Origin: an uncultured Archangium sp.
GTDB taxonomy: Bacteria > Myxococcota > Myxococcia > Myxococcales > Myxococcaceae
Assembly (NCBI GenBank): GCA_903905455.1
Contig: CAIVGN010000107.1
Span: 1 to 64,000, forward strand
Direction: 5' to 3'
DNA length: 64,000 nt
In this document: piece by piece, positions 31,386 through 62,590 of the stretch
Layout: each line of letters begins with the position of its first letter
Numbering within the stretch: position 1 is the stretch's first letter
The notes under the pieces: model-generated
What the model was told of the DNA's origin: nothing
The model's database searches: none
Seen by the model: only the letters and a program-made list of their open reading frames with translations
Translations under genes and position numbers: made by a program

Positions 31386-31874
31386 TCAGGAGGAAAGGCC
31401 GGTGGCCACCAGCAGCTCGGCGATGCGCTGGCGCACGGTGTGCCCCGGGCCCGTCGCCGGGAGCACCACCACCGGCACGGCCCGGGCCCGCTCGAAGAGC
31501 GCCGGGGCCTCGGTGCCCAGGGCCTCGTCGCACTGCGCGCAGAAGCCGCCCTCGGCCATCTCCACGCGGTGGTGGGCGGTGAGCTGCTCCCAGAGGCCCT
31601 CGAGCCACTCGCGGCTGGGGTGCGGCGCGCAGAGCGAGACGAGGCCCCCGTGGTCCTTGGTCACGGCCCGCCGGTAGAGCGGCACGGCGTGCAGCCGGGC
31701 GATGAGCGCGGGGAACAACACCTTCTCTTCGACCGCGATGCGCTGCAGCAGCCGCTGGCGAAAGGCGTCGAACCGCACGAGGTCCACCGCACCGCCAGGC
31801 GAGACACAGGACCGGAGCTGATCGCCGAGCGCAACGTGCTCCGCTTCGAACCAGGCGGTGAACGGACCACCCAT
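31386..31874 (-). CDS. Hemerythrin-like (HHE) domain protein
   Basis: The 162-residue protein has histidine and carboxylate positions typical of hemerythrin-like di-iron bundles: EAEHVAL near residue 13, EEKVLFPAL near 50, KDHGGLV near 74, and TAHHRVEMAEGG near 101. Such proteins bind oxygen, nitric oxide or iron. A near-consensus -24/-12 promoter at 31907 and a GTTTC-N5-GAAAC site 163 bases before it support sigma-54 control. It is divergent from the NnrS-like gene, which fits a nitric-oxide response role (inference). Confidence 0.78.
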   Translation of the reverse strand: MGGPFTAWFEAEHVALGDQLRSCVSPGGAVDLVRFDAFRQRLLQRIAVEEKVLFPALIARLHAVPLYRRAVTKDHGGLVSLCAPHPSREWLEGLWEQLTAHHRVEMAEGGFCAQCDEALGTEAPALFERARAVPVVVLPATGPGHTVRQRIAELLVATGLSS

Positions 31875-31906: not shown

Positions 31907-31922
31907 TGCACGGCGCGTGCCC
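31907..31922 (-). promoter_or_regulatory. Sigma-54 (-24/-12) promoter of the hemerythrin gene
   Basis: GGGCACGCGCCGTGCA differs from the consensus TGGCACGNNNNTTGCA only at two positions and keeps the GG-N10-GC core. It would start transcription about 20 bases before the ATG. Confidence 0.6.
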
Positions 31923-32076: not shown

Positions 32077-32091
32077 GTTTCGACTTGAAAC
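32077..32091. promoter_or_regulatory. Shared operator GTTTC-N5-GAAAC, site 1 (hemerythrin/NnrS)
   Basis: GTTTCGACTTGAAAC is a perfect 5+5 inverted repeat. It lies between the divergent hemerythrin-like and NnrS genes, in activator-site position for both. Identical arms recur only at 59789 and 60927. Confidence 0.6.
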
Positions 32092-32123: not shown

Positions 32124-32139
32124 TGGCGTGGGGGGTGCA
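32124..32139 (+). promoter_or_regulatory. Candidate sigma-54 promoter of the NnrS gene
   Basis: TGGCGTGGGGGGTGCA keeps the GG-N10-GC core and the TGGC and TGCA ends. It lies so close to ATG 32152 that the message would be nearly leaderless, or the true start is further in. Confidence 0.4.
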
Positions 32140-32151
32140 CCCGGGCCGGAC

Positions 32152-33444
32152 ATGCGTCTGCCGCTTGCGCCGAACGAGGTCCAGGGCCGCCGAACCCTTC
32201 ACGTGGCGACGCGGTCGGCCCCGGTGGTCCTGACGCCGGCCTGGCCGGTGTTCGTGGTGGCGGCCTTCCTCTGCACCCTGACCGCGGGCGGGCTGACGGG
32301 CGCGCTCGACCTGTGGACGCTGCGCGTGGCCCACAACGCCGTGCCCCTCGACCACGCACGCGGCCACGCCCTGGCACAGGTCTTCGGCTTCCTGGGCCTG
32401 TTCACCATGGGCATCTCGCTGCACCTCGCGCCGCGGTTCTTCGGCGCGGGCCCTCCGAGCCGGGCGTTCACCCGGGCGCTGACGTGGCTGGGCGTGGGCG
32501 GGGTGGCCCTGGCCATCGTGGGGCGCCTGGGCGCGCTGGTGCCCGGGTCGGCGTGGTTCGGGCTCGTGGGCGTGGGGGCGGTGCTCGCGGCGAAGACGCT
32601 GTGGGCCTCGATGCTGGTGGGCTTCTGGCGCGAGCTCCCCGGCCCGAAGGACACCCTGCAGCGCTTCCTCGTGGCGGGCGTGGGCTGGTGGTGGCTGGCG
32701 GCGGTGACGCTGCTGGGGTGGCAGCTGGGGCAGTCGTTCGGCGGCCCGGGGGCGAGCATCCCCCTCGAGGCGGTGTGGGCGCCGGCGCTCTTCGGCGGGG
32801 TGGCCTCGTGGCTGTGGGGCATCTTCTTCCGCGCCGGCATCTGCACCCTGCACGTGCCCCGGCCTCCCGAGCGCGCGCAGCGCCGGCTCTTCCTCGCGTG
32901 GCAGCCGGCGGCGGCGCTGATGGTGTGCGCGAGCTGGGCCCAGGTGCCGCTGCTCGACGCGCTCGCGGGCGGAGCCATGGCCTGCGCGGTGGGGCTGCTG
33001 TGGTGGACGGTGCGGCCCTTCTCGGGCGAGGTCGGCGACGGCGGCGCGCTGCAGCCGCGCGCGGTGCAGGCGGGCCTCGGGTTCCTGCTGGTCTTCGCGG
33101 CCCTCGAGCTCTGGGTGGCGTTGAGCGCGCTGGGGGTGTGGGCGCCGGTGCTGCTGCGCGACGCGGCCCGGCACGCCTTCACCCTGGGCGGCGCGGTGCT
33201 GCTGGTGCTGGGCTTCGCCGGGCGCATGGTGCCCGGCTTCCGCGGCGTGGGGCTGCGCTGGCCGCGGGTCTACGACGCCGGGGTGATGGCGCTGATGCTC
33301 GGCGCCACGCTGCGCCTGGGCGAGCTCTTCAGCGCGCGCGCCGGCCTGGCCCTCGCCGGGGCGTCGGGGGGCCTCGCGTTCCTCGGCCTGGCCCTCGCGG
33401 CGACCTCGCTGCTGGGCAGCCTGCGGCTCAAGCCCGCTGCTTGA
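32152..33444 (+). CDS. NnrS-family multi-pass haem/copper membrane protein
   Basis: The 430-residue protein has about 12 hydrophobic segments. It has the NnrS-type opening region with His residues in HNAVPLDHARGH and a conserved MGISLHLAPRFFGAGPPSRAF block. NnrS is a membrane protein linked to nitric oxide and denitrification in several proteobacteria, where it eases NO stress. Its position opposite a hemerythrin and its shared operator with nosZ support a nitrogen-oxide role. The start could be later than ATG 32152. Confidence 0.75.
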   Translation: MRLPLAPNEVQGRRTLHVATRSAPVVLTPAWPVFVVAAFLCTLTAGGLTGALDLWTLRVAHNAVPLDHARGHALAQVFGFLGLFTMGISLHLAPRFFGAGPPSRAFTRALTWLGVGGVALAIVGRLGALVPGSAWFGLVGVGAVLAAKTLWASMLVGFWRELPGPKDTLQRFLVAGVGWWWLAAVTLLGWQLGQSFGGPGASIPLEAVWAPALFGGVASWLWGIFFRAGICTLHVPRPPERAQRRLFLAWQPAAALMVCASWAQVPLLDALAGGAMACAVGLLWWTVRPFSGEVGDGGALQPRAVQAGLGFLLVFAALELWVALSALGVWAPVLLRDAARHAFTLGGAVLLVLGFAGRMVPGFRGVGLRWPRVYDAGVMALMLGATLRLGELFSARAGLALAGASGGLAFLGLALAATSLLGSLRLKPAA

Positions 33445-48497: not shown

Positions 48498-49777
48498 GGG
48501 GCTGTTGGCTCGGGGCAGGACAGGGTGAACGGCAGGCGCGGCCGGGGCGGCGGCGCTTCGCCCACGCGGGGGCGCGGGTCGGACAGCAACAGCTCGGGCG
48601 AAGCGAAGGGCGCGAGGCGCTCGAGGAAGTCGAGCAGCTCGAAGGCCGGCGCGTTGCGGAAGAAGGTGGCCTGCGGCTCTTCCTGCCAGAGCCGGTCGGC
48701 GAAGGTGTACGCCTCGTAGGGGGTGTCGCCGATGCCGTCACCGTCGAGGTCGAAGCCCTCGTAGTCGTCGAAGGCGTTGTCGCGCCACTCGTTGCCCCGG
48801 GCGCTCATCGGCGCGCTCACCGAGACCTGCACCAGGTTGCGCTCGAAGCGGTTGCCGTGGATGAGGTGGCCTCCGTTCTCGCCGTAGAAGTCCATGCCCG
48901 CGAGGTTGTGAGCGAAGCGGTTGCGGGTGAAGGAGATGATGGCGTCGGGCGAGGTCGGCGCGTTCGTCTTGGCGCCCACCGCGCAGTGGATGATCTCGTT
49001 GTCCTCGACGATGGCCTGGCCGCTCTCCTTGAACGAGAGGCCGGTGCCCGACGCGCCGCGCGAGTGCTGCACGGTGTTGCGCCGCAGCACCACGTCGTTC
49101 GAATAGAGCACCGCGATGCCGGTGAGGTTGGCGTCGAGCACGTTGTCTTCGAGGGTGTTGCGCGGGGCGAAGACCAGCTGCAGGCCGTAGCGCCCGGCGC
49201 GGATGCGGTTGCCCGAGACCACGTTGTCGCTCGAGTTGGCCAGGGCCACGTCGCGGGCCGCGAAGACGTCGTTGCCCACCACCCGGTTGCCACGGCCGTT
49301 CCACACCCGCACCGCGTCGCCGCGCAGGCTGTGGTCCTCGTGCTTGGAGGTGATGGTGTTGCCACACACCACGTCGTCCCGGCCCGCCTTCACGAAGACC
49401 CCGAAGAGCACGTCGTCCAGCGTGTTGTGCTCGAGGCGCGCGTGGTTCGCCTCGAGCAGCACCGCGCTGTCCATGGCGTCGTGGCTCGCGCCGCTGCCGG
49501 TGATCCGCAGGCCGCGCAGGGTCACCCCGTCGGCGGTGATGGTGATGACCGTGCCGTGGCCGTTACCGGTCACGGTGGCCGCGCCGTCGCCGTCGAGCAC
49601 CAGGGGCTTGTCGATCAGCAGTGGGCCCGCCCACAGGCCCGGGGGCACGTGGATCACCGCGCCCGGCGCCGCGGCGTCGATGAGCGGCTGCAGCGCGCGG
49701 GTGCTCTGCTCGGGAGGAACCTCGAGGCCCGGCGCCGCTGCGCAACTGGCCAGCAGGAGCAGGGACAGGTGCTTCAC
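48494..49777 (-). CDS. Second NosD-like beta-helix protein
   Basis: The 427-residue protein has a signal peptide with lipobox-like LLLASC and a right-handed beta-helix made of repeated carbohydrate-binding/sugar hydrolysis (CASH/NosD) strands. It ends with the NosD-typical tail near GIGDTPYEAY. It resembles the nosD gene at 53783 in its whole length, including the final block FLERLAPF. GTG 49777 overlaps the nosY stop. A second NosD in one nos operon is unusual and suggests duplication followed by specialisation. Confidence 0.85.
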   Translation of the reverse strand: MKHLSLLLLASCAAAPGLEVPPEQSTRALQPLIDAAAPGAVIHVPPGLWAGPLLIDKPLVLDGDGAATVTGNGHGTVITITADGVTLRGLRITGSGASHDAMDSAVLLEANHARLEHNTLDDVLFGVFVKAGRDDVVCGNTITSKHEDHSLRGDAVRVWNGRGNRVVGNDVFAARDVALANSSDNVVSGNRIRAGRYGLQLVFAPRNTLEDNVLDANLTGIAVLYSNDVVLRRNTVQHSRGASGTGLSFKESGQAIVEDNEIIHCAVGAKTNAPTSPDAIISFTRNRFAHNLAGMDFYGENGGHLIHGNRFERNLVQVSVSAPMSARGNEWRDNAFDDYEGFDLDGDGIGDTPYEAYTFADRLWQEEPQATFFRNAPAFELLDFLERLAPFASPELLLSDPRPRVGEAPPPRPRLPFTLSCPEPTAP

Positions 49778-50601
49778 ACCAGGTCGCCGCGCCGGAAGTT
49801 GACGTAGCCAATGCTCGCCGCGAGCGTGCCCAGGGCCGCCGGGTAGACCATGGAGTAGATGATGAAGTTCGGCCCGCCAAACCAATCGTAGATGACGAAG
49901 GCCGCCGGCCCGAAGACCACCAGCTGCGGGTCGAAGAGCATCAGCGCGCCGGTGCGGAAGACCTGCAGGGGGTTGATCAACGCAATGGCCACCACCGTCT
50001 CGGCCGGCACCCGGCCCTGGATCATCACCCCCAGGAGGATGAGGTCGAGGAACAGCAGGCAGGTCAGCCACAGCACGAAGGCCGAGCCCTGGGCCACGTC
50101 CGTCGAGCGCGCGAACGTCGAGAGCATCATCCCCAGGCCCAGGAAGCACCACGACATGGCCGCGAGCTGGCCGGTGTAGATGCCGAACATCCGCCAGGGT
50201 ACCTCGATGTCCTTGAACGTCGCCCAGGCCGCCGCGCCCGCCATCGCCAGGAACACCGGCAGGAACACCGTGAAGAACCGCCCCACGATGCGCCCCCAGT
50301 ACCAACTCGAGAGCGAGACCGGCAGCGACAGCAGGTACTCGAAGACGCCCGCCTCGCGGTCACCGGCCACGCTGCGCACCGTCGTCAACAAGATGAAGAT
50401 GGGCATGATGGCCATCGCCAGCTGGATGTACGTCACCAGCAGCCGCGAGAGCCCCATGAAGCCCAAGACCCGCGACTCGGTCACCCCGAAGGCGAAGAAC
50501 GCCGCGACGATGCCGCCGAAGATCAGCGAGTAGACGAAGAACCACTTCGCCCTGATGGATTCGGCGATGTCGAGGCGGGCGGTGAGCGCGAGGTGTCCCA
50601 T
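49774..50601 (-). CDS. nosY: ABC transporter permease NosY
   Basis: The 275-residue ABC-2 type permease has six hydrophobic segments and the family segment TVRSVAGDREAGVFEYLLSLP. With NosF it forms an ABC exporter thought to move a sulphur-containing or other maturation species for the CuZ centre of NosZ. It ends overlapping the second nosD. It follows nosL by 15 bases. Confidence 0.92.
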   Translation of the reverse strand: MGHLALTARLDIAESIRAKWFFVYSLIFGGIVAAFFAFGVTESRVLGFMGLSRLLVTYIQLAMAIMPIFILLTTVRSVAGDREAGVFEYLLSLPVSLSSWYWGRIVGRFFTVFLPVFLAMAGAAAWATFKDIEVPWRMFGIYTGQLAAMSWCFLGLGMMLSTFARSTDVAQGSAFVLWLTCLLFLDLILLGVMIQGRVPAETVVAIALINPLQVFRTGALMLFDPQLVVFGPAAFVIYDWFGGPNFIIYSMVYPAALGTLAASIGYVNFRRGDLV

Positions 50602-50616
50602 GGGGTGCTCCGTGGA

Positions 50617-51099
50617 TCAGTGGGTGTGGGCGGCCGCGCGGACCTGCGCGCGCTGCGTGGGGAGATCGTTGCCCGTGGGCCCCGGGTCGACGGCGCCGAA
50701 GTTGAACCCCATCGGCGTGGGCGGGCCCGGCACGTAGCGGGCCGTGCGCCCGTCGATGAAGGCGCCGTCGGTGCGGCGCGCCACCCAGAGCTCGGTCTTC
50801 GGGTCGTCCGCCCATGGCTGGGTGTCGAGCCACTTGAGCGCGCAGCCGACGTCGTCGAACTTGGTCACGTCGTGCCGCGGGCCCCCGCGGACTTGTGCCG
50901 CGTAGTGCGGGTCGCTGATCACCATGCCGCAGGCGCGGCAGGCGTCGCGATCCCATTTGATCTCCACCGGGCCCGTGGACGGGGTGTTGGTGCAGGCGGT
51001 GAGGAGCAGGAGGAGGGGGAGGGGGAGGAGTGTGAGGCTGAGGTGGGGTTGGCCCCTCACCCCGGCCCTCGCCCCGCTGGCGCAGGGCGAGGGAGTCAT
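50617..51099 (-). CDS. nosL: Copper chaperone lipoprotein NosL
   Basis: The 160-residue protein has a long leader and the lipobox LLTAC, then DACRACGMVISDP with the Cys and Met ligands that bind Cu(I). A C-terminal NosL fold (FDDVGCALKWL) follows. It delivers copper to NosZ. The first 17 residues are encoded by a dispersed GC-rich repeat, so the true start may be GTG 51060, which would leave a normal signal peptide. ATG 51099 overlaps the nosF stop. Confidence 0.88.
   Translation of the reverse strand: MTPSPCASGARAGVRGQPHLSLTLLPLPLLLLLTACTNTPSTGPVEIKWDRDACRACGMVISDPHYAAQVRGGPRHDVTKFDDVGCALKWLDTQPWADDPKTELWVARRTDGAFIDGRTARYVPGPPTPMGFNFGAVDPGPTGNDLPTQRAQVRAAAHTH
51051..51095 (+). repeat. Dispersed GC-rich repeat, copy 8, at the nosF-nosL junction
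   Basis: It runs from ggcccctcaccccgg to gcagggcgagggag. It ends one base before the nosF stop and is read in frame as the N terminus of NosL. Confidence 0.85.
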
Positions 51100-51974
51100 G
51101 AGACGACCCGCAGGGCCGGCTCGGCAGGGCCTTCTTCGAGCGACACGCGGGTCAACAGCCCCACGTACCGCGAGAGCATGCCCATGAAGCGCAGGCGATC
51201 CGCGCCGGCCACCGTGCCCGACCAGCTCACCCCGTCGTTGCCCTCGGAGAAGCCCCACTCGCGCAGGGCCTTCGCCACCGCGGCGTCGGGGCGGCGCAGG
51301 GTCACCTCGGTGCGCAGCACCCCGGTCAACGGCGCGTCGGCCACCTTGTCGTCGAGCACCACCTTGCCGCGGTCGAGCTCGATGACCCGGTTCACCAGGG
51401 CCGCCACTTCGTCGAGCCGGTGGCTGGAGATGATCATCGTGGCCTTCGACGCCCGCTCCGCCAGCAGCGAGAAGAAGACGTGCCGCGCCTCCGGGTCGAG
51501 GTTCGCAGCGGGCTCGTCCATGATGAGCAGCTCGGCGTCGCGCCCCAGGGCAATGGCGATGAGCAGCTTCTGCTTCTGCCCCCCCGAGAGCTTGAAGAAG
51601 GGCTGCTGCGCGAAGAGCTTCACGTCGAGCCCCAGGCGCGTGGCGATGGCCTCGATGGCCGCCACCTTCGTGCCCGAGACCGCGGCCGAGAACCGCAGCA
51701 GCTCCTTGACCGGCATCTTCAGCGGGGGCGGCAGCTGCGGCACGAAGCCCACCTTCTTGAGCACCTCGCTGCGGTGGGCCCGGGGGCTCTTGCCGTCGAT
51801 CTCCACCGCGCCCGCGAAGGTGTACTCGCCGAGCATGCAGCGGATCATCGTGGTCTTGCCCGCCCCGTTGGAGCCGACCAGGGCGATGCGCTCGCCGGCC
51901 TCGACGTCGAGCTCCAGCGCGTCGAGCACCTTGAGCTTCTTGAAGACCTTCGTGAGCGCCTTGAGGCTGATCAT
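51096..51974 (-). CDS. nosF: ABC transporter ATPase NosF
   Basis: The 292-residue ATPase has Walker A GSNGAGKTT near residue 36, the signature LSGGQKQKL near 129, and Walker B LLIMDEPAANLDPE. It pairs with NosY. The C-terminal 70 residues after the ATPase core form the NosF-type regulatory extension. It is downstream of nosH by four bases. Confidence 0.93.
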   Translation of the reverse strand: MISLKALTKVFKKLKVLDALELDVEAGERIALVGSNGAGKTTMIRCMLGEYTFAGAVEIDGKSPRAHRSEVLKKVGFVPQLPPPLKMPVKELLRFSAAVSGTKVAAIEAIATRLGLDVKLFAQQPFFKLSGGQKQKLLIAIALGRDAELLIMDEPAANLDPEARHVFFSLLAERASKATMIISSHRLDEVAALVNRVIELDRGKVVLDDKVADAPLTGVLRTEVTLRRPDAAVAKALREWGFSEGNDGVSWSGTVAGADRLRFMGMLSRYVGLLTRVSLEEGPAEPALRVVS

Positions 51975-51978
51975 TGCT

Positions 51979-52974
51979 TCACTCCTCCTGCTTCTTCGGG
52001 CCGCGGGGCGTGCGGGTGACGCCGGTGATGGAGAAGGTGAGCGCGCCGCCCTGGCACACGTCGATGCACATGCCGCAGCGGGTGCAGTCAGGGCCGATGT
52101 CGAGGTGCTCGGAGGTCGCGCGACCCTTGATGATGTGGTCGAGCACGTGCGGCACGAGGCACACCTTGCGGCACTCGCCTTCGTGCACGCACTTCTCGAG
52201 GTCGTAGTGCACCTTCACCGGGGAGAACGTGCCCACCACCCCGTAGGTCAGGCCGATGGGGCACAGGTACCGGCACCACGCGCGGCGCGAGTAGAAGACC
52301 TCGAAGGCCAGCAGCGCCAACACCCAGCCGAAGGCCAGGCCCGGGCCGTAGATCAACGAGCGCGAGACGATGCCCGTGGGCGAGATGGTCTCGTAGACCG
52401 TGTACCCCGTGCCGTAGGCCAGCAGCGCGAAGGTGGCCCAGATGACGGTGCGCAGCCCGCGGTGCAGCGGGTGGTCCTTCACGATCTTCTTCTTCGCCAG
52501 GAACAGGTGGAGCTTCTCCGCCCACTCCGAGAGGAAATGGTACGGGCACACCCACGAGCAGAAGCTCCGGCCGCCCAGCAGGAACCACACCGCGCCCACC
52601 GTCGCCGTGCCGATGAGCAGGTTCACGATGATGTGCTTGTGCGCCAGCATCAGCCCCAGCGCTGCGTTCAGGTCGATCATGTGAAAGCCGAGGAAGCGGC
52701 TGCCGGTCAGCGAGCCCTCCACCAGCTGCACGTCGATCCAATACGAGAGCGCGAACATGAGGTTGACGCTGATCAGCACCGCCCAGCGTCGCCGGGTCCA
52801 CACGGCGCGCCGGCGGTGGGCTTCCTCAGCGGCCTGCAGGTCCACGTAGTCCTGCTTGGTGAGCTTCTGGGTGGCGTGGAGCCGCTTCGCGCCCGGGGTG
52901 AAGTCTTCGGGCTCGGGCTTCTTCGGCTCGCCGCCGAACATCAGGCGCAGCTGGTCCAGGGTCCGGTTCTTCAT
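51979..52974 (-). CDS. nosH: NosH/NapH-type polyferredoxin membrane protein
   Basis: The 331-residue protein has four or more membrane helices and the NapH-type loop motifs CSWVCPYHF and CRYLCPIGL, each giving CxxxCP. C-terminal 4Fe-4S clusters follow (CVHEGECRKVC and CTRCGMCIDVC). It probably accepts electrons from the quinol pool and passes them toward NosZ via NosG and the cytochromes, replacing NosR in clade II systems. Its start overlaps the nosG stop by four bases. Confidence 0.88.
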   Translation of the reverse strand: MKNRTLDQLRLMFGGEPKKPEPEDFTPGAKRLHATQKLTKQDYVDLQAAEEAHRRRAVWTRRRWAVLISVNLMFALSYWIDVQLVEGSLTGSRFLGFHMIDLNAALGLMLAHKHIIVNLLIGTATVGAVWFLLGGRSFCSWVCPYHFLSEWAEKLHLFLAKKKIVKDHPLHRGLRTVIWATFALLAYGTGYTVYETISPTGIVSRSLIYGPGLAFGWVLALLAFEVFYSRRAWCRYLCPIGLTYGVVGTFSPVKVHYDLEKCVHEGECRKVCLVPHVLDHIIKGRATSEHLDIGPDCTRCGMCIDVCQGGALTFSITGVTRTPRGPKKQEE

Positions 52975-53786
52975 GACGCGCTCCAGGTCTTGCGGGCGTC
53001 GATGACGATGGCGGCGGGCTCGGCGGGGCACATCATCTCGCACACCCCGCAGCCCACGCAGGGCTCGTGCACCACCGGGGTCGGCTTGCCGCCCACGTCT
53101 TCGATGCTGATGGCGCCCTTGATGGGACACTCGCGCACGCACAGGTCGCAGCGCTCGAGCTCGTAGTCGTGGTCGCGCACCGGCTGCGGCTTCCAGCGGT
53201 CCACCTCCGACCAGCGCTTGTGGCCGCGGAACGAGCCGCCCCGCGCCGAGCCCTTCACCCCTTCCCCGCGCACCGAGAGGCACGCCTCGGGCCGCGCCAG
53301 CCGCGCCACGCCCATGCGCTCGGTGATCTGCAGCGTGGGCTCGGGCTCGTGTTCCTTGGCCAGCAGCACCGGGGCCGCTTCGAAGCGGGCACCTGGCCGC
53401 GGCTGGAGGAAGTCGGGCTTGTGGTACGCCAGCGCGCCGGTGGGGCAGGCGAGGATGCACTGGCCCACGTCGCACGAGAAGTCGCAGGCCTGGCGCCGCG
53501 GGTCGAGGTACGGCACGCCCACCCCGAAGCCGTCGAAGAGGTCGGCCGGCTCGAGCGCGTTCACCGGGCACACCTGCACGCACTGGCCACACTTGATGCA
53601 CGACGCGAGGAAGTCGTGCTCGTCGAGCGCGCCCGGGGGCCGCAGCCGCTCGGTCTTGCGCAGCAGCACCGGCAGCAGGCCGGTCATCGACAGGCCCACC
53701 ACGCCCGCGCCCACCGCGGCCGCCTGCAACAGCTTGCGCCGCTGCTCGAGCTGGCGCGGGTCCTTCGGCTTCTTCTCGTCGCTCAT
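52971..53786 (-). CDS. nosG: NosG/NapG-type ferredoxin
   Basis: The 271-residue protein has a signal-anchor-like N terminus with an RR pair before a hydrophobic helix (about residues 16-40). Four 4Fe-4S motif sets follow: CIKCGQCVQVCP, a degenerate CDFSCDVGQCILACP, CDLCVRECP and CVGCGVCEMMCP. It is the periplasmic electron carrier of the clade II nos system, partner of NosH. It overlaps nosD and nosH at both ends. Confidence 0.88.
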   Translation of the reverse strand: MSDEKKPKDPRQLEQRRKLLQAAAVGAGVVGLSMTGLLPVLLRKTERLRPPGALDEHDFLASCIKCGQCVQVCPVNALEPADLFDGFGVGVPYLDPRRQACDFSCDVGQCILACPTGALAYHKPDFLQPRPGARFEAAPVLLAKEHEPEPTLQITERMGVARLARPEACLSVRGEGVKGSARGGSFRGHKRWSEVDRWKPQPVRDHDYELERCDLCVRECPIKGAISIEDVGGKPTPVVHEPCVGCGVCEMMCPAEPAAIVIDARKTWSAS

Positions 53787-55117
53787 GGCGTCCCCCGCTG
53801 GGGCTTGTCGAAGAGGGGCGCCTCGTCCTTCACCAACAGGTCGGGCGTGGAGAACGGGGCCAGGCGCTCGAGGAAGTCGAGGGCCTCCAGCAGCGGCGCG
53901 TTCTTGAAGAAGCGCGCGGTGGGCTCCTCCATCCAGATGCGGTCGGAGTACGCGTAGAGCTCGTACGGGGTGTCCCCCACCGCGTCCGAGTTGCGGTCGA
54001 AGCCCTGGTAGTCGTCCCAGTAATTGCCGCGGTAGACGTGGTTGCCTTCGACGCCGCCGCTCTGCGCGGCCACCGGGTCGATGTTCCCCTCGAAGATGTT
54101 GCCCTCGATGGTGGTGCCCGGCTTGTCGCCCAGGAAGTTGAGGCCCACGCCGTTGTAGGCGATGCGGTTGTCCTTGATGCTGATGGTCGAGTCGGGCTCG
54201 AAGGGCGAGAGGTCCGAGCCGATGCCCACCGCGCAGTAGACGACGGAGTTGCCCTCGACCACCGAGTTCGAGGCCTCCTTGAAGCCGATGCCCAGGCCGG
54301 TGGCCCCGACCGAGTGGCTGATCAGGTTGCGGCGGATCTCGACCCCGTCCGTGTACATCACGTAGATGCCCACCGAGTTGTCGTCGTACTCGTTGTCTTC
54401 GACGACGTTGTGTTGGGCATACATGAAGTGCAGCGAGTAGCGGCCGCGCTTGCCCACGTTCTTGCGGATGACGTTGTCGTTCGAGTACCAGACCACCACG
54501 TCGCGCGAGTCCACGACCACGTTCTGTTCGACCACGTTCTTCATCGAGTACCAGAGGCGGATGGCGTCGCCCCGCAGCCCCAGGGTGCGGTCGAGGGAAC
54601 GGATGTGATTCCTGCGCACCACGTTCTCGTTCGACTGCTTGAGGTCGATGCCGAAGAGGCAGTCTTCAAAGGCGTTGTCCTCCACCACGTTGTGGTGGCC
54701 GCGCACGTTGAGGCAGGTGTCGTCGTTGCTGTGCGAGTCGCCCGAGCCGGTGAAGGTCAGCCCGCGCAGGGTGGCGCCGCTGGTCTCCAGGGTGAACACC
54801 GTGCCCCGGCCGCCGCCGTCGATGATGGCCTTCCCGCCGCCGCCGTCGATGATCAGCTTCTTCTTCACCACCACCGGCCCCGAGTAGCGACCGGGCTTCA
54901 GCGCCAGCACTCCGCCCTCGGGCGTGGCGTCCACCAGCGCCTGCAGCCAGGGAACGTTCTTCAGCGTCGGCGCGGTGGGCAGCGGGGTCGGCTCCCACGA
55001 GGCGCCCCACTGGCCGGGCGCGGCCATGCCCGCGGGGCTCTCGCCGGGCTCACCCGGCTGGGCGGCCACCGCGAGCAGGCCCGCGAACACCAGCACGATG
55101 GCGACGCGCGCGCGCAT
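53783..55117 (-). CDS. nosD: NosD periplasmic copper-maturation protein
   Basis: The 444-residue protein has a signal peptide and the NosD beta-helix of repeated Asn-rich rungs (for example NVVEDNAFEDC, NVVEQNVVV and NVIRKNV), then GDTPYELYAY near the end. NosD is needed to assemble the CuZ centre. It is coupled to nosG (ATGA). The full-length beta-helix and operon position distinguish it from the second copy at 48494. Confidence 0.92.
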   Translation of the reverse strand: MRARVAIVLVFAGLLAVAAQPGEPGESPAGMAAPGQWGASWEPTPLPTAPTLKNVPWLQALVDATPEGGVLALKPGRYSGPVVVKKKLIIDGGGGKAIIDGGGRGTVFTLETSGATLRGLTFTGSGDSHSNDDTCLNVRGHHNVVEDNAFEDCLFGIDLKQSNENVVRRNHIRSLDRTLGLRGDAIRLWYSMKNVVEQNVVVDSRDVVVWYSNDNVIRKNVGKRGRYSLHFMYAQHNVVEDNEYDDNSVGIYVMYTDGVEIRRNLISHSVGATGLGIGFKEASNSVVEGNSVVYCAVGIGSDLSPFEPDSTISIKDNRIAYNGVGLNFLGDKPGTTIEGNIFEGNIDPVAAQSGGVEGNHVYRGNYWDDYQGFDRNSDAVGDTPYELYAYSDRIWMEEPTARFFKNAPLLEALDFLERLAPFSTPDLLVKDEAPLFDKPQRGTP

Positions 55118-55120
55118 GGC

Positions 55121-56098
55121 TCAGGCCTTCTCTCCGGCGTCGGCCAGCTCGTGGCGGCGCCGCAGCACGGCCACCAACATCAACACCGTCACCGCCGCCA
55201 GCAGCGCGAAGGCGGTGGTGGGGTACGAGTGCGTGGAGAACTGCGCCACCTTCCCGTCGCCGAAGACGGTGGGCATGAAGGGCTTCACGGTGAAGGCGCC
55301 CCAGGGGTGCATGTTGTGACCGAAGAAGTAGAGCCACGCCGCGAAGGCCCCGAGGAAGAACACCGGCAGCAGCGCGGGCACGATGCCCAGCACCAGCTGG
55401 AAGCCCGGCCACTTCCACGAGGCGAACGTCACCAGCACCATGAGGACGATGAGCACCACCGCCACGATGGTGGTCGCCGTGGTGAGCCGCTCCCCCCAGG
55501 TGGCGATGCGCTCCGCGTCGCGGAAGTACTTGCCCGCCTCTTCCGTGTACTCCTTGACGTGCGTCGCCAGGCGACCCTGGCCCCACACCTCGAACACCAT
55601 CCACGCGCTGACCGCCGCGAAGCCCACCCCCAGCACCAGCACCCGCACCTTCTGGGATCCGATGGCGAAGCCCAGGAGCGCCACCGCGAAGAGCCCCACG
55701 ATGTACTTGGACAGGAAGCGCTCCACAGGCGCCCCGACCCCGATGGGGTGCATGCCCACGTAGTGGTTGATGGTGTTCATCTCGTGCATGCAGTCGAGCA
55801 CCGCCTCGGGCTTGTCTTTCGGGTCGGCCTTTTCGATGTCCCCTTCGCCCGAGCGCCAGCCGAGGTCTTCCTGCTGCGTCTCCTGGCCCAGGCGGCTGCC
55901 CTTGGGCACCGTGGTGCAACCGTTGGTGACGCCGGTGAAGCCAAACATGATGCGGATGCCGTCGGGGAACGCGTCGGGCGGGTAGTTCGGCGCGGTCAAC
56001 GACACCCACCACAGGGGCATGGAAGACGCCGCGATCATCGCGAAGGTCGCCGCGACGGCGAGCAGGCTGATCAACGGTGACTGGCGGGTGGACGGCAT
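55121..56098 (-). CDS. nosB: NosB-like clade II nos membrane protein
   Basis: The 325-residue protein has about six transmembrane helices, with a periplasmic loop after the first that contains conserved Cys (GVTNGCTTVP and LDCMHEMN) and His (NHYVGMHPIG). This matches the NosB family that lies between nosZ and nosD in clade II operons such as Wolinella. The function is not firmly known; a role in electron transfer is proposed. The symbol rests on the architecture and position. Confidence 0.72.
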   Translation of the reverse strand: MPSTRQSPLISLLAVAATFAMIAASSMPLWWVSLTAPNYPPDAFPDGIRIMFGFTGVTNGCTTVPKGSRLGQETQQEDLGWRSGEGDIEKADPKDKPEAVLDCMHEMNTINHYVGMHPIGVGAPVERFLSKYIVGLFAVALLGFAIGSQKVRVLVLGVGFAAVSAWMVFEVWGQGRLATHVKEYTEEAGKYFRDAERIATWGERLTTATTIVAVVLIVLMVLVTFASWKWPGFQLVLGIVPALLPVFFLGAFAAWLYFFGHNMHPWGAFTVKPFMPTVFGDGKVAQFSTHSYPTTAFALLAAVTVLMLVAVLRRRHELADAGEKA

Positions 56099-56180
56099 GA
56101 CGCGGCCTCGGAGGTGCTGCGGTGGATACACGCGGGGCGAGGAGGAGCCCCTCCATGCCCCGGCGTTGCTGATCAGCGGG

Positions 56181-56879
56181 TCACTTCTTCTTCGGCGCCT
56201 GCGAAGGCATCTCGAGGCGCGACATGAAGTCGACGATCGCGTCGATTTCCTTGTCGCTGTACGTCTTGATGATCTTCACCATGTCGGGGTTCGCGTTGCG
56301 GCGCTTGCCGTCACGAATGTCCGTCGCCTGGCGCAGCATGTACTTGTAATGCTGGCCCGCGAGCACCGGGTAGAACTTGTCCTTGATGCCTTCGCCGTTC
56401 TTCTGGTGGCAGGTCTCGCAGTCGCGGGCGTAGAGCTTCTTGCCCGTCTCGAGGTCCGTGCCCGGGCCCTTGCCGTTGTCGTGCGGCACCTTGAGCGTCG
56501 AGATGTACGTGGCCACGTCGGCCAGCTCCTGCGGGTCGACGAGCGTCGAGGCGAAGGGGTACATGATGGGGTTGTCCCGCAGCCCGGCGCGGATGTCGGC
56601 CATCTGCTTGATCAGCACCGTGGTGTGCTGGCCGGCGAGCTGGGGGAAGGTGCCGTCGGCCCGGCCGGCGCCGCTGGGCAGGTGGCACGCCGAGCACACC
56701 TCGAAGGCCTCCTCGCCGCGCGTGGCGTCACCCTTGAGCTTGAGCGCTTCGATCTTCTCGCCTTCCTGCGCGTTCCACTTGTAGCCCTTGCCCTCGATGC
56801 CCTCCTTCTTGGGTGCGGGCGGGCCCGCGAAGGCGGTGACGGAGACGACGGACACGAGGGCGATGAGGAGTCGGTTCAT
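56181..56879 (-). CDS. Di-haem cytochrome c of the nos operon
   Basis: The 232-residue protein has a signal peptide and two CxxCH haem sites, CSACH and CETCH, each followed by a distal Met region (YPFASTL; MVKIIKTYS). It has the layout of tandem cytochrome c4-like domains. It probably shuttles electrons to NosZ (the NosC-type role in clade II). It starts at ATG 56879, eight bases downstream of the small cytochrome gene. Confidence 0.85.
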   Translation of the reverse strand: MNRLLIALVSVVSVTAFAGPPAPKKEGIEGKGYKWNAQEGEKIEALKLKGDATRGEEAFEVCSACHLPSGAGRADGTFPQLAGQHTTVLIKQMADIRAGLRDNPIMYPFASTLVDPQELADVATYISTLKVPHDNGKGPGTDLETGKKLYARDCETCHQKNGEGIKDKFYPVLAGQHYKYMLRQATDIRDGKRRNANPDMVKIIKTYSDKEIDAIVDFMSRLEMPSQAPKKK

Positions 56880-56887
56880 GGGCGTGC

Positions 56888-57223
56888 TCACAGGCTCGAG
56901 AGGAACTGCGCCAGGGCCTTGATCTCGGTCTCGTTGACCAGCGGCATGATGCCCTTCATGGCCGCGGTGTTGCCGTTGGCGCGGGCGCCGCTCTTGATGT
57001 CCAGCATCTGGCGCTCGGCGTAGGCGGCGCTCTGGCCGGCCAGCTTCGGGTACTCGGGGAGCAGCGGGGTCTTCGCGTCCTTGCCGTGGCACGCCAGGCA
57101 GGTCTTCGTGGCGAAGAGCTTCGCGCCTTCGGCGACCAGCTTCGGATCCGGCTTCACTTCAGGCTTCTTCTCGGCGGCGACGGCCAGCGAGGGCAACGCG
57201 AGGGCGACGATCAACCACTTCAT
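56888..57223 (-). CDS. Mono-haem cytochrome c of the nos operon
   Basis: The 111-residue protein has a signal peptide (WLIVALALPSLAVA) and one haem site CLACHGKD, with a distal Met in MKGIMPLV. It is homologous in domain type to each half of the downstream di-haem protein. A 108-base gap separates it from nosZ. It is a likely electron donor of NosZ (NosC-type). Confidence 0.86.
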   Translation of the reverse strand: MKWLIVALALPSLAVAAEKKPEVKPDPKLVAEGAKLFATKTCLACHGKDAKTPLLPEYPKLAGQSAAYAERQMLDIKSGARANGNTAAMKGIMPLVNETEIKALAQFLSSL

Positions 57224-57331: not shown

Positions 57332-59617
57332 CTACTTCACCTTCGTGGCGCCCTTCTGTTCCAGGTACGTCTTGGCGCGCAGGCCGATGTCGGCCGCCTT
57401 CACCTGGTACTGCCACCACTGACCGGCCCAGAGCGTGGCGTTCTGCCAATCCTCTTTCTTGGCGGCCTCTTCCATCTTCTTCTTGGGCTCTTCAGCGGCC
57501 TTGAGCTGGTCCGTCGCGTCTTCCACCAGCGCCACCGCGTCGGGGAAGTCCTTGAAGTTGGTCGCGACGATCCACCCCACCACGCTGTCGATGACCTTCT
57601 GGGTCTCGACGTTGGTGTTGAACTGCTTGTCGTAGTCGGCCTTGGTGTACTCGGCCTTCGCCGCGGTGCTCGCGGTGGCCTTGTAGCCCTTGGGCTTGAC
57701 CAGGAAGTAGCCCTGCATCTCGAGGTGCAGCGCCGAGCAGAACTCGGTGCAGTAGTAGGGGAACACGCCCTCGCGGTCGGCCTTGAACTTCACCGAGATG
57801 GTCTTCCCGGGTTCCACCGAGGCGTGCACGTTCATCGCGCTGACGGTGAAGCCGTGGGTCTCGTCTTCGGCGCGCTCGAGGTTGGTCAAGTTGATGGTCA
57901 CCTCGTCGCCCTTCTCCGCCTCGATGATCTCCGGGGTGATGTGCGAGCGGATCAACGTGCCGAACACCTCGACCTTGCCCGGCGAGCGCACGATCTTCTC
58001 TTCACCCGCGCGCACCGCGCCGGGGTGCTTCTCGTCGGTGCGGCTGTTGGTGCCCACCTTGTAGCGAACGCCCGGCTTGAGGGTCGAAGCGGCAATGGCC
58101 ACCGAGTAGTGGGGCTCGCCCAGCGGCACCGGCATGTCGTACAGCAGCTGCATCTTGTCGCCGCTGATGTCGATGAGCTGGTGGTTCTGGGGGTGCAGCG
58201 GCCCGACCGGGTTGAAGCGGTCGATGGCCAGCTTGTTGAGGGCCACCAGGTAGTGACCCTTGGGGTTGACCGAGTCACCCTCCATCGTCATCAGGTGACC
58301 GATGTTGTAGTGCACCGACAACTTGTCGAGCACCTTGCCCTCGCAGTAGTCCCACTTGGCCACCTGCGAGTCGACGTACAGCGAGGTGTACGCGATGCAC
58401 GGCTTGGAGTCGTACTGGGTGTGCAGCGGGCCCAGGCCCAGCTCCACCTGCTTCTGCAGCGCGTCCTTCATGGCGATGATCGGGATGCCGTACGGGTCCT
58501 TGCCCTCGAACTTGCCGGCGGCGATGGCGGCCTGAATCTTCTCGAACGAATAGACCATCGTGTGCGTGTCGAGCTTGCCCGACACGATGATGAACTTGCC
58601 GTCGGGGGTGACATCGCTGCCGTGCGGGCTCTTGGGCTCGGGCACGAGGAAGAGGATGCCTTCCTTGATGGCCAGCTCCATGGGGATGACGTTGTGCCCG
58701 TTGATCTTCTTCGCCTTGCCGGCCTTCACCAGCTCGGCGGCCTTCTTCCAGTTGGTGATGTGGAGGAAGTCGGTGTCCTTCGCGGAGCAGCCGGCTTCGA
58801 AGGGCGGGCGGCCCAGCTCGATGCCGCCGACGTAGCGCTCGGTGCAGAACGAGTTGGTGAAGCCGAAGCCCTCCGAGGGGCCCTTGCCCGCGTCCGAGAG
58901 GTCCTGGCTGTAGGGGGGCAGCTCGAACGAGAACGACTGCGCGGGGTCGATGCGGCCCTTGGTGCGGTCGAACTTCCAGTAGGTGAGCCCACCACGGTAC
59001 TTGTCGTTGAACTGGTCGAGCGGCACGAAGCCGTTCTCCAGGGGCGCGGCGTACTGCGCGGCCTCCATGATGTACTCGGAGTTCGGGGTGACGAAGGCGC
59101 CGCCGTGCTCGCTCTTGAAGACCGGGTTGACGACGATCTGCTTCGTCTCGAAGTCGCGCAGGTCGATGACCGCGAGCCGCGGGTTGGCCTTGTCGTTGAT
59201 GAAGAGGAACTGGCCGTCGTAGGCGCCGTTGGTCTCGGAGAGGGCGGGGTGGTGCGTGTCGCCCCAGGTGATCTCCTTGCCGCCGATGGAGCCGTCCTTG
59301 AGCACCTTCTTCGACTCTTCATCGAAGCCGTAGCCCTGCCACGGCTCGGGGGTGAAGACCGCGAGGTACTTCAAGATGCGCATCGAGGGGATGCCGTAGA
59401 CGATGACCTGGCCCGACTGGCCGCCGGAGCTGAACGCGAGGAACTCGTCGCGCTTGCCCGTGGGCACGTAGGTCTTCGCCGCCGCCAGCAGGTCTTGCTG
59501 GGTGAGGTTTCGGCGCTTCAGGACTTCTTGCAGGGTCTCGTTGCCCGCCCACGCCGTCGCCGCCGAGGCCGACGCTGCGAGCACCGCGGCGAGGAGCCGC
59601 TTTTTTCCAAACATCAT
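57332..59617 (-). CDS. nosZ: Nitrous oxide reductase NosZ (clade II, Sec-exported)
   Basis: The protein of about 761 residues reduces N2O to N2. A Sec-type signal (LLAAVLAASASAATAWA) without a twin-arginine motif marks clade II. The seven-bladed propeller (for example THHPALSETNGAYDGQ and FINDKANPR) holds CuZ. The CuA site is YYCTEFCSALHLEM near residue 635. A C-terminal extension of about 110 residues follows CuA without a CxxCH haem, unlike the haem-bearing tail of Wolinella NosZ. The start is ATG 59617 or 59614, the second better spaced from GGGAGG. A -24/-12 promoter and a GTTTC-N5-GAAAC site lie upstream. Confidence 0.95.
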   Translation of the reverse strand: MMFGKKRLLAAVLAASASAATAWAGNETLQEVLKRRNLTQQDLLAAAKTYVPTGKRDEFLAFSSGGQSGQVIVYGIPSMRILKYLAVFTPEPWQGYGFDEESKKVLKDGSIGGKEITWGDTHHPALSETNGAYDGQFLFINDKANPRLAVIDLRDFETKQIVVNPVFKSEHGGAFVTPNSEYIMEAAQYAAPLENGFVPLDQFNDKYRGGLTYWKFDRTKGRIDPAQSFSFELPPYSQDLSDAGKGPSEGFGFTNSFCTERYVGGIELGRPPFEAGCSAKDTDFLHITNWKKAAELVKAGKAKKINGHNVIPMELAIKEGILFLVPEPKSPHGSDVTPDGKFIIVSGKLDTHTMVYSFEKIQAAIAAGKFEGKDPYGIPIIAMKDALQKQVELGLGPLHTQYDSKPCIAYTSLYVDSQVAKWDYCEGKVLDKLSVHYNIGHLMTMEGDSVNPKGHYLVALNKLAIDRFNPVGPLHPQNHQLIDISGDKMQLLYDMPVPLGEPHYSVAIAASTLKPGVRYKVGTNSRTDEKHPGAVRAGEEKIVRSPGKVEVFGTLIRSHITPEIIEAEKGDEVTINLTNLERAEDETHGFTVSAMNVHASVEPGKTISVKFKADREGVFPYYCTEFCSALHLEMQGYFLVKPKGYKATASTAAKAEYTKADYDKQFNTNVETQKVIDSVVGWIVATNFKDFPDAVALVEDATDQLKAAEEPKKKMEEAAKKEDWQNATLWAGQWWQYQVKAADIGLRAKTYLEQKGATKVK

Positions 59618-59672
59618 GTGTCCTCCCTTGAGCAGATGGCCGCTGGGTGCGGCAATCGGTCGCACCCCCCTG

Positions 59673-59688
59673 TGCATCGCCCGTACCC
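59673..59688 (-). promoter_or_regulatory. Candidate sigma-54 promoter of nosZ
   Basis: GGGTACGGGCGATGCA has the GG-N10-GC core and matches consensus at nine of twelve defined positions. It would give a leader of about 45 bases. The operator at 59789 lies about 109 bases upstream of it. Confidence 0.45.
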
Positions 59689-59788
59689 GGCTGATCAGCG
59701 GCGGCGCGTAGGCAGGCCCACGGCTTTCATGCACTTAGCGGCTGCAAGCGCTGCGTTCCGCGCGGCCGTGGCTGATTCGTTCCACCCA

Positions 59789-59803
59789 GTTTCACATCGA
59801 AAC
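59789..59803. promoter_or_regulatory. Shared operator GTTTC-N5-GAAAC, site 2 (nosZ)
   Basis: GTTTCACATCGAAAC is a perfect 5+5 inverted repeat in enhancer position for nosZ. Confidence 0.6.
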
Positions 59804-59808
59804 GCGCG

Positions 59809-59852
59809 CTCCCTCGCCCTGCGAAGCGGGGAGAGGGCCGGGGTGAGGGGCC
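59809..59852 (-). repeat. Dispersed GC-rich repeat, copy 9 (inverted)
   Basis: It reads ctccctcgccctgcgaagc to ggccggggtgaggggccgg and separates the nosZ regulatory region from the sigma-54 activator gene. Confidence 0.8.
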
Positions 59853-59891
59853 GGCTCAAGCACGACCCCGCGACCCCGCGACCCCGCGGCC

Positions 59892-60926
59892 TTACGCCTC
59901 GAGCCCGTAGCCCTTCATCTTGCGCCACAGCGTCGTCCGCCCAATGCCCAGCACGCGCGCGGCATCCACCTGCTGCCCACCGCACGCCTCGAGCACGCGC
60001 AGCACGTGGCGTCGCTCGGCCTCCTCGAGGGTGACCAGCTCGCCCTCGTCCGGGGGCGGCGGCGCGACCATGGGCAGGCTCAACTCCTCCGGCAGGTGTT
60101 CCAGCTCGATCACCGCGCCCTGCGAGAGCACGGCCCCGTGCTTCACCGCGTTCTGCAGCTCGCGCACGTTGCCCGGCCACGGGTACTTGCCCATGGCCGC
60201 CATGGCCTTCGCCGAGAACCCGGCGCGGTGCCCTTCCTGCTCGAGGAACATGCCCGCGAGCATGGGGATGTCTTCGGTGCGCTCGCGCAGCGGGGGCACC
60301 ACCAGGGTGAAGACCTTCAGGCGGAAGAACAGGTCTTCGCGGAAGCGCTTCTCGCGCACGCACTGCTGCAGGTTCTGGTGCGTGGCACAGAGGATCCGCA
60401 CGTCGACGTGCACCGGCTGGGACTCGCCCACGCGGCGCACCTCGCCGTCCTGGAGCACGCGCAGCAGCTTGGCCTGCAGGGGAAGGGGCATCTCGGCCAC
60501 CTCGTCGAGCAGCAGCGTCCCCCCGTCGGCCGTCTCGAAGAGCCCCTTCCGGGCGACCTGGGCGCCGGTAAACGCCCCCTTGGCGTGGCCGAAGAGCTCC
60601 GACTCCAGCAGCTCGCCGGGCAGGGCGGCGCAGTTCACCGCGATGAAGGGCTTCAACTTGCGCGCGCTGTTGGCGTGCAGGGCGCGGCCCACGACCTCCT
60701 TGCCCGAGCCGCTCTCGCCGCGGAGCACCACCGAGGCGTCGGTGTTGGCCACCGTCGAGGCGCGCTGCAGCAGCTGGCGCATGGCCGGGCTCCGGGCCAC
60801 CAACCGCGCGCACTTCCGGCCCTGTGGCGACTCGGGCAGCAGCCGGCACAGCTTGCACAGCCCGCCCCCCCGCTCGAACGGCGTTTCACAGGTGTACGGC
60901 CCCAGGGTCTCGGTGTGTTCGCCCAC
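59892..60926 (-). CDS. Sigma-54-dependent activator with an N-terminal four-cysteine motif
   Basis: The 344-residue protein has a short N terminus with Cys at 13, 24, 27 and 39 (C-x10-C-x2-C-x11-C). The AAA+ domain follows, with Walker A GESGSGKE (70-77), the sigma-54 contact loop GAFTGA (117-122) and [10 protein letters not shown], and a C-terminal Fis-type HTH ([22 protein letters not shown]). There is no GAF, PAS or receiver domain; the cysteines could hold zinc or an iron-sulphur cluster as a sensor. GTG 60926 abuts the operator at 60927; an in-frame ATG at 60992 is an alternative that would put the operator inside the gene. It is the likely controller of nosZ and its neighbours. Confidence 0.85.
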
Positions 60927-60941
60927 GTTTCGATATGAAAC
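60927..60941. promoter_or_regulatory. Shared operator GTTTC-N5-GAAAC, site 3 (activator/beta-barrel)
   Basis: GTTTCGATATGAAAC is a perfect 5+5 inverted repeat between the divergent activator and beta-barrel genes. It suits autoregulation of the activator. Confidence 0.6.
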
Positions 60942-60986: not shown

Positions 60987-61002
60987 TGGCATTCCACTCG
61001 CA
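60987..61002 (+). promoter_or_regulatory. Candidate sigma-54 promoter of the beta-barrel gene
   Basis: TGGCATTCCACTCGCA keeps the GG-N10-GC core, TGGCA and GCA. It lies directly before GTG 61015, so the message may be leaderless or the start may be further in. Confidence 0.45.
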
Positions 61003-61014
61003 TCACCGCCCCGC

Positions 61015-61929
61015 GTGCGGCTCGTGCTCCCGGCGCTGGTGGTGTTGGCTCTCGCGGCGACGCGCGCCGAGGCGGCGGCGTGTTGCCTGTCCGCGTCGGT
61101 GGTGGGGGTGGGGCGGCTGACGGTGTGGGAAGACGCCGCCGGCGGGCTGAGCACCTCGTACAGCCACGGCACCGGCCGGTGGGACGCCTGGAGCCAGTAC
61201 CGGCCCTTGGGCGCCGGCCTCCGCGAAGACGAGCTGCGGCTCGAGGCGTGGGGCCTGGTTCGGTTGCACGAGGCCTGGCAGGTCTCGGCGCGCGTCCCCT
61301 GGGTGGTGGGGGTGCGCGCGGCCGGTGACGCGAGCTCGGTGGGCACGGGCGTGGGCGACGTGAGCGCGGCGGTGCGCTGGGAGGCCGTGTCGCTGGGGGC
61401 GTTTGAGCATGTGCCGGGGCTGGCGCTGTCGTTGGGGCTCACCACGCCCACCGGCCGACGCCCGGAGCTGGCCACGGATGCGCTGGGGGCCTCGGCCACG
61501 GGGCGCGGCGCGTGGACGGTGAGCGCGGGGCTGGCCGCCGAGTACGCCTGGGCGCCGTGGTTCGTGCGGCTCGACGTGGGCGCGCTCTACAACGCCCCCT
61601 TCGTGCGGGCGGATACGGGCGTGGTGCAGGCCTTCGGGCCCGGGGGGCAGGCCGCGCTGTCGGGCGGGCGCGAGCTGCTCTCCGAGCGACTCGTGCTCGC
61701 CGCGTCGCTGCGCTTCGAGCACGAGTTTCCCTTGTCGCTGAGAGGCGCGATGACTGCGCGCAGTGACAGCTCGAGCCTCGCGGTCTCGGTGTCGGGCGCC
61801 TTCAAGGTCACCTCGCACTGGACGGTGACCGCCGCCGTGAGCAGCGACGCCCCGGGGCACCTGGGCCTCGCGCAGAACCGGGAAGAGCGGCTGGGCTTCA
61901 TGCTGGGGGTGCGACGTGGGTTCTTTTGA
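61015..61929 (+). CDS. Outer-membrane beta-barrel-like protein next to the nos cluster
   Basis: The 304-residue protein has a signal peptide ([18 protein letters not shown]) and then a CC pair (ACCLSASV). Alternating glycine/aromatic amphipathic strands follow to a C-terminal Phe, typical of a beta-barrel. The sequence has the look of the transporter-like porins encoded next to copper or redox genes. A role in copper or small-molecule uptake for NosZ is inference from location and the shared operator. GTG 61024 is another possible start. Confidence 0.6.
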
Positions 61930-61950
61930 AGCGGTCCGTGGTCTCGGGTT

Positions 61951-61995
61951 GGCCCCTCACCCCCGCCCTCTCCCCGCTGTCGCAGGGCGAGGGAG
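61951..61995 (+). repeat. Dispersed GC-rich repeat, copy 10
   Basis: It runs from ggcccctcacccccgcc to gcagggcgagggag. Its terminal GAGGGAG appears to serve as the ribosome site of the following redoxin gene. Confidence 0.8.
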
Positions 61996-61999
61996 CCTG

Positions 62000-62590
62000 G
62001 TGGTGCTGTTGCTCGCGGGGTGCGCGTCGTCCGGGGTCACCTCTCTTGCCGGGGCCACGCTCACGTCCACCAGTCGCCAGGTGCACAGCGCGCAGGACCT
62101 GGTCGCCGCCGCGCCCGCCACGGTCTTCGTCTTCTGGTCCGCCGGGTGTCCCTGCGTGCGCCGCTACCAGGAACGCATCGAGGCCCTGGCCGCCGCCTGG
62201 CGCCCCCGGGGCATCGCCTTCGTGCAGGTCTCGAGCAACGCCGGCGAGACCCTCGAGTCGCTCACCCTCGAGCACGCCCGCCGCGGCCTCGCCCTGCCGG
62301 TGTGGCGCGACGAGGGCGGGCAGCTCGCGCAGGCGCTCCAGGCGCGCAGCACGCCCACGGTGGTCTTCGTCGGGCGCGACGGCACGGTGCTCTTCCGCGG
62401 GTGGGTCGACAACGAGCGCACCCCCGGCGAGCCGGATCGCGAGGCCTGGCTCGAGGCCGCGTTGACCGGCTTCACCCGGGGCGAGGCCTTCGCCAGCCAC
62501 ACGCCCACCTGGGGCTGCACCATCACCCGTTCCCTCGGTCTCGCCACCACGCCCAGCTGCCACCAACCTTCCCCCGGAGAGACCCCATGA
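62000..62590 (+). CDS. Thioredoxin-fold (redoxin) lipoprotein
   Basis: The 196-residue protein has a short signal with lipobox LLAGC and a thioredoxin-like fold with FWSAGCPCVRRY (CPC instead of CxxC) and the cis-Pro region STPTVVFVGRDG. Such AhpC/TSA-like redoxins reduce disulphides or copper-site thiols in the periplasm. GTG 62000 is used. It is the first of a coupled pair (ATGA overlap with the next lipoprotein) and is divergent from the activator by one gene. Confidence 0.75.
   Translation: MVLLLAGCASSGVTSLAGATLTSTSRQVHSAQDLVAAAPATVFVFWSAGCPCVRRYQERIEALAAAWRPRGIAFVQVSSNAGETLESLTLEHARRGLALPVWRDEGGQLAQALQARSTPTVVFVGRDGTVLFRGWVDNERTPGEPDREAWLEAALTGFTRGEAFASHTPTWGCTITRSLGLATTPSCHQPSPGETP

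Follow-up and report, generated by a model that had tools for sequence, protein, structure and literature searches.

The window, the 64-kb stretch of DNA that was analysed, carries the nitrous oxide reductase gene nosZ with the rest of its operon, a gene for a sigma-54-dependent activator and genes for hemerythrin-like, NnrS-related and outer-membrane proteins. These genes are accompanied by three copies of one inverted repeat, the candidate operator, and by four elements resembling -24/-12 promoters (p values against shuffled sequence):

31386..31874, minus strand: gene for a hemerythrin-like (HHE) protein, orthologues of which adjoin the activator gene in most relatives
31907..31922, minus strand: hemerythrin -24/-12-like element GGGCACGCGCCGTGCA (p=0.02)
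32077..32091: operator GTTTCGACTTGAAAC, between the hemerythrin and NnrS-like genes, an exact match
32124..32139, plus strand: NnrS-like gene's -24/-12-like element TGGCGTGGGGGGTGCA (p=0.046)
32152..33444, plus strand: gene for an NnrS-related membrane protein, the orthologue of which adjoins the activator gene in G003, G004 and G005
49774..57223, minus strand: rest of the nos operon, in the same gene order in relatives, with nosF (51096-51974), nosD (53783-55117), a further gene (55121-56098), two cytochromes c (56181-56879 and 56888-57223), and Fe-S protein, nosL-like and nosY-like genes
57332..59617, minus strand: nosZ, clade II (Sec-dependent) nitrous oxide reductase (TIGR04246, 897 bits, cutoff 625)
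59673..59688, minus strand: nosZ -24/-12 element GGGTACGGGCGATGCA (GG-N10-GC; p=0.098)
59789..59803: operator GTTTCACATCGAAAC, upstream of nosZ
59892..60926, minus strand: sigma-54 activator (bEBP) of 344 aa, recognised by its domain matches and four-cysteine N-terminus
approx. 60807..60890, minus strand: stretch coding four conserved cysteines, a candidate metal- or NO-sensing head
60927..60941: operator GTTTCGATATGAAAC, abutting the activator's GTG start codon (60926-60924), with the same position in G004, G007, G006, G003, G001, G066, G108 and others
60987..61002, plus strand: beta-barrel gene's -24/-12-like element TGGCATTCCACTCGCA (p=0.014)
60991..61929, plus strand: reading frame of a putative outer-membrane beta-barrel gene, start near 61016, co-located with the activator gene and nosZ in G002
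61916-62590, plus strand: redoxin gene, after the beta-barrel gene
62587-63360, plus strand: YtkA-like gene, after the redoxin gene

The initial annotation placed one repeat between hemerythrin and NnrS genes, and this position holds, but the NnrS label needs correcting: the membrane protein is only a weak NnrS relative (17.7 bits against a Pfam cutoff of 28), and the hemerythrin falls below the model cutoff in this genome but above it in its orthologues. The operator at 60927..60941 also lies 45 bp upstream of the beta-barrel gene's -24/-12-like element.

The initial annotation had reported perfect repeats at 32077, 59789 and 60927 only, and a search of the window returned exactly these three matches to GTTTC-N5-GAAAC against 0.04 expected, a count reached in none of 100 shuffles. 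Random occurrence across the genome had been named as evidence against a regulon; the distribution is instead non-random, as five of the six exact sites in the 8.6-Mb assembly (251 contigs) lie in promoter regions of denitrification or NO genes, and the reversed-pattern control gave no match. Beyond the three in the window, two sites lie on contig C73 and one on contig C29 (C29:40560). Two of these three sites, which were not used for defining the motif, fall in denitrification promoters, and random placement would put two of three sites there with a probability of ~1e-7, an order-of-magnitude estimate from target length. The C73 sites were invisible to the initial annotation and therefore constitute an independent test.

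The five candidate functional sites possess R at position 6 and Y at position 10, a symmetry that is broken at C29:40560, where the adjoining gene is unrelated. Addition of sites from relatives gave the consensus GTTYCRNNNYGRAAC, which matches the genome eight times: at the same five sites, at C73:15533, and at C115:93098 and C218:3057, both of which adjoin unrelated genes. The seemingly unrelated sixth site and the numerous one-mismatch matches in relatives, most of which are noise, are what might be expected of chance palindromes. The genome-wide placement and the cross-genus conservation of the sites leave this explanation a negligible probability, and conservation is regarded as having refuted it already.

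On C73 (locus L007), the operator at 8388-8402 lies between the divergent genes norC (minus strand) and nirK (plus strand), the latter scoring 354 bits against a TIGR02376 cutoff of 296. The norC side reads norC-norB-norQ-norD-norE-NnrS, and the second operator (1540-1554) lies just behind NnrS, upstream of an Alginate_exp porin gene. The initial annotation had proposed an N2O/NO regulon of four genes, a proposal that is supported but too narrow: because two sites outside the window lie in the nirK/norCBQDE-NnrS locus, the regulon is larger, and 'N2O/NO' should read 'denitrification from nitrite on'. As read from the sequence, the regulon appears to comprise nirK, norC, the porin gene, nosZ, the hemerythrin, NnrS-like and beta-barrel genes, and the activator gene itself. 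In G004, a related site GTTTCAGAAGGAAAC lies ~70 bp upstream of napD-napA (L060:5307), which suggests that nitrate reductase may belong to the regulon of some species. Upstream of an ftsH gene in G005 lies the site GTTTCAGGGTGAAAC (L058:7760), accompanied by a -24/-12-like element.

C73 also encodes an FNR-like regulator with an N-terminal CSECPLGDKGSC cluster and an FNR-type recognition helix, 5-7 kb from nirK (C73 14597 and 14665-15260). A perfect FNR box TTGATCCAGATCAA lies behind this gene, and the refined operator GTTCCATATTGGAAC at C73:15533 is found ~300 bp upstream of it. The proximity of this gene and its box to nirK would suit control by an FNR/DNR-type regulator with the dyad being incidental, but a search of the five operator promoters for NorR, FNR/DNR, HcpR, CRP and NsrR boxes found none, and the odd N5 spacing is unlike that of FNR-type sites, making such control extremely improbable.

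A -24/-12-like element lies between each operator and its gene at seven targets, those on C73 being TGGGCCTCGCCTTGCA at nirK, TGGCACGTTCGCTGAA at norC, where the -12 is CTGAA rather than GC, and TGGCTGCAATGCTGCA at the porin gene. The candidates that the initial annotation had listed at 31907, 32124, 59673 and 60987 were all found in place, although single matches are modest, with p values of 0.002-0.20 against shuffled sequence (0.014-0.098 for the four window elements and 0.20 for AlgE) that combine by Fisher's method to ~6e-6. Conservation of the elements is stronger evidence than the individual p values. Upstream of nosZ, six genomes from three genera retain GGTA[CT]G-N5-TGCA with variable middle bases. 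In the norC-nirK intergenic region of five genomes, a single operator is flanked by two divergent elements: TGG....-TTGCA towards nirK, at a distance of 40-43 bp, and TGGCACG-N4-CTGAA towards norC, at a distance of 50-54 bp. The operators lie upstream of the nosZ and hemerythrin promoters as first described, but at 100 bp (nosZ) and 154 bp (hemerythrin) from the -24, edge to edge, and not at 109-163. The short operator-promoter spacings fall near 30, 41 and 52 bp, approximately one helical turn apart, a purely descriptive observation. Directly behind the nosZ -24/-12 element of six genomes lies an inverted repeat, such as GTGCGGC-N5-GCCGCAC (window 59617-59690; L066-L069 and L073), as if the nosZ transcript started with a hairpin.

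The activator possesses a Sigma54_activat domain (PF00158, 236.6 bits) with the AAA+ lid and an invariant GAFTGA loop, followed by a C-terminal Fis-type HTH (PF02954, HTH_8, 51.4 bits) with the recognition helix GRTTLWRK. The genome encodes one RpoN. In its AAA+ module with GAFTGA, its Fis-type HTH and its candidate targets nosZ, nirK and norC, where an upstream activator site precedes conserved -24/-12 promoters, the protein belongs with the sigma-54 activators of the NtrC family. Only ~50 residues precede the AAA+ domain, and a domain search found no GAF, receiver or PAS domain. This N-terminus instead carries C-X10-C-X2-C-X11-C, or more fully C-[EDS]-x-P-F-[ED]-x-G-[GP]-x-L-C-x2-C-R-x(10)-C-x-R-[LM]-V, and none of C7, C18, C21 and C33 varies among 15 orthologues, which come from several families. 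A scan of the collection with a six-row N-terminal alignment returned nine named loci, all in Myxococcota MAGs. An AlphaFold model of the activator based on nine orthologues gave a mean pLDDT of 59 and a pTM of 0.37, values so low that the model says nothing on the N-terminal cysteines.

NorR, which controls norVW in E. coli and norAB in Ralstonia, is likewise a sigma-54 AAA+ activator with a Fis-type HTH, and its NO-related targets likewise include NO reductase and hemerythrin-like proteins. An NtrC-family AAA+ protein that adjoins NO-related genes and scores 327 bits on the curated NorR model might thus be a NorR orthologue that has lost its GAF domain and acts at NorR sites. That score, however, is far below the cutoff of 476 and also below the NifA and AtoC scores; the recognition helix is GRTTLWRK; and the operator is not the tandem GT-N7-AC of NorR sites (PMC1274295) but GTTYCRNNNYGRAAC, mostly single. 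With a conserved four-cysteine motif in place of the N-terminal GAF domain of NorR, which holds a mononuclear iron, the activator is not NorR, and descent from NorR with retention of its sites is very improbable. The regulon proposed here, unlike that of NorR, also spans nirK, nor and nos. In this breadth it resembles the DNR/NnrR regulons of the FNR family, in which one regulator likewise governs nir, nor and nos, but there an FNR-type regulator acts at the box CTTGATnnnnATCAAG (PMC1274295), whereas here the pair would be a sigma-54 activator and an N5 dyad. 

Among sigma-54 activators, those of the NifA/AnfA/VnfA type are under cysteine-based redox or gas control, with the cysteine motif in a linker or beside a GAF domain. 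The activator described here is likewise cysteine-bearing, but its motif constitutes the entire region before the AAA+ domain.

In G000-G007, G009, G014, G022, G030, G066 and G108, the operator either directly adjoins the activator start codon or is no more than 18 bp away from it, and it sits at the start codon in ~12 of 20 homologues. Relatives from several families share this arrangement: G066 belongs to another family and G108, with the perfect site GTTTCATAATGAAAC, to another (class-level) lineage of the phylum. The named relatives are Myxococcaceae/Archangium MAGs. An in-frame stop inside the G007 dyad fixes the start codon directly behind the dyad. In the window (60924-60941), there is no room for a ribosome-binding site between the dyad and the activator start codon, and the G108 dyad (L136:8774-8800) contains CATAAT; the activator may have a leaderless transcript, the -10 element of which overlaps the operator.

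Among 36 screened genomes of family f1, the four-cysteine activator is present in 11 of 11 with nosZ and in only one of 25 without it; as the relatives are not independent, p values for conservation and co-occurrence are overstated and indicative only. The single exception is G014, in which an NnrS-related gene adjoins the activator gene. An operator scoring above the 95% null score lies at nosZ in 11 of the 12 activator-bearing genomes, and the relatives' nir/nor loci have one between norC and nirK. At 11 control nosZ heads from lineages without an operator-bearing activator, the operator score is at background. A good site is lacking at the nosZ head of G005 and at the head of a second homologue in G002, and the homologues of G083 and G093 have a weak site at best. 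Orthologues with the recognition helix GRTTLWRK are paired with the GTTTC-type operator; where the helix is GRNTLWRK, no more than GGAAC-type half-sites are present. The pairing of activator and operator appears to be conserved in denitrifying relatives. Use of the site by the neighbouring activator, as first proposed, is supported by the operator at its start codon, the co-occurrence with nosZ, the lack of the site at nosZ in activator-less lineages and the adjacent -24/-12 elements.

The same 5-bp arms and N5 spacer recur in other myxobacteria, Myxococcus-like genomes without the activator, where the core GTTTC-N5-GAAAC is kept between a divergent HxlR-type regulator gene and an SDR/MFS gene. 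This palindrome, GGTTTC-N5-GAAACC (L150-L157), is probably the own operator of the HxlR-family regulator. Its existence allows that another DNA-binding protein, such as an HxlR-family repressor, binds the denitrification dyads and that the bEBP is a mere neighbour sharing the regulon. However, the HxlR-type operator is longer, stands in another gene context and has neither a sigma-54 element nor the activator, and the denitrification sites all lack its outer GG/CC. No HxlR gene was seen in the denitrification loci, and the dyad there goes together with the bEBP, directly adjoins its start codon and keeps a fixed spacing to conserved -24/-12 elements. Binding by another protein is consequently unlikely. 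Since the core is shared, bare GTTTC-N5-GAAAC is not diagnostic, and the context and the R...Y refinement matter. The initial annotation knew of no described regulator with this motif; for the core this must be qualified by the HxlR-type operator, but searches of the open-access literature, to which this result is confined, turned up neither an account of the motif nor one of a sigma-54 protein regulating myxobacterial nosZ. The operator appears to be previously undescribed, and regulator and operator appear to be new members of a known general type.

What was observed directly is that operator, promoters and activator are present, how rare they are in the genome, where they lie, and that they are conserved and occur together. 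It is highly probable that these elements constitute a dedicated myxobacterial denitrification/NO regulon, composed of the bEBP (59892-60926), the dyad GTTYCRNNNYGRAAC and sigma-54 promoters. The activator would bind the 15-bp dyad as an upstream activator site, a nitrogen-oxide signal at the cysteine head would release or assemble it, and it would then remodel sigma-54 RNA polymerase at the -24/-12 promoters, driving nirK, norCBQDE-NnrS, the C73 porin gene, nosZ, and the hemerythrin, NnrS-like and beta-barrel genes. A point against this scheme is that most promoters here have a single dyad, whereas an activator of the NtrC type usually works from at least two sites. The dyad at the activator's own start codon probably mediates negative autoregulation, as proposed for NorR2 of Vibrionales, which has a single site at its own gene (PMC1274295).

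The activator gene adjoins NnrS-related, ScdA_N/hemerythrin (RIC-type) or DUF1858 genes in G066, G083, G108 and G014, and these neighbours, together with the napD-napA site of G004, suggest that the signal is NO and not N2O. The four N-terminal cysteines would most likely be the place where NO, or a reactive nitrogen species, acts, perhaps by way of a metal or Fe-S centre in place of the iron-GAF of NorR. That the C-X10-C-X2-C-X11-C head is a new NO sensor, probably of a metal or Fe-S type, that gates a sigma-54 AAA+ domain without GAF and acts as master switch of the whole Myxococcota denitrification pathway is offered tentatively, with somewhat less than even confidence.

To our knowledge, the regulation of clade II nitrous oxide reductase is poorly known, and most of the regulators described for the complete denitrification pathway are of the FNR type. 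If the proposal is true, a sigma-54 activator that links nirK, nor and nos through its own operator would fulfil the same role by a second architecture, for which the exact operator, the promoter set and the four cysteines are now available as testable targets. In this soil myxobacterium, all the enzymes that reduce nitrogen oxides, among them the one that breaks down the greenhouse gas N2O, appear to be switched on through one operator and a single sigma-54 activator whose head is rich in cysteines. Such a switch would allow a prediction of when N2O is consumed by myxobacteria and not emitted.
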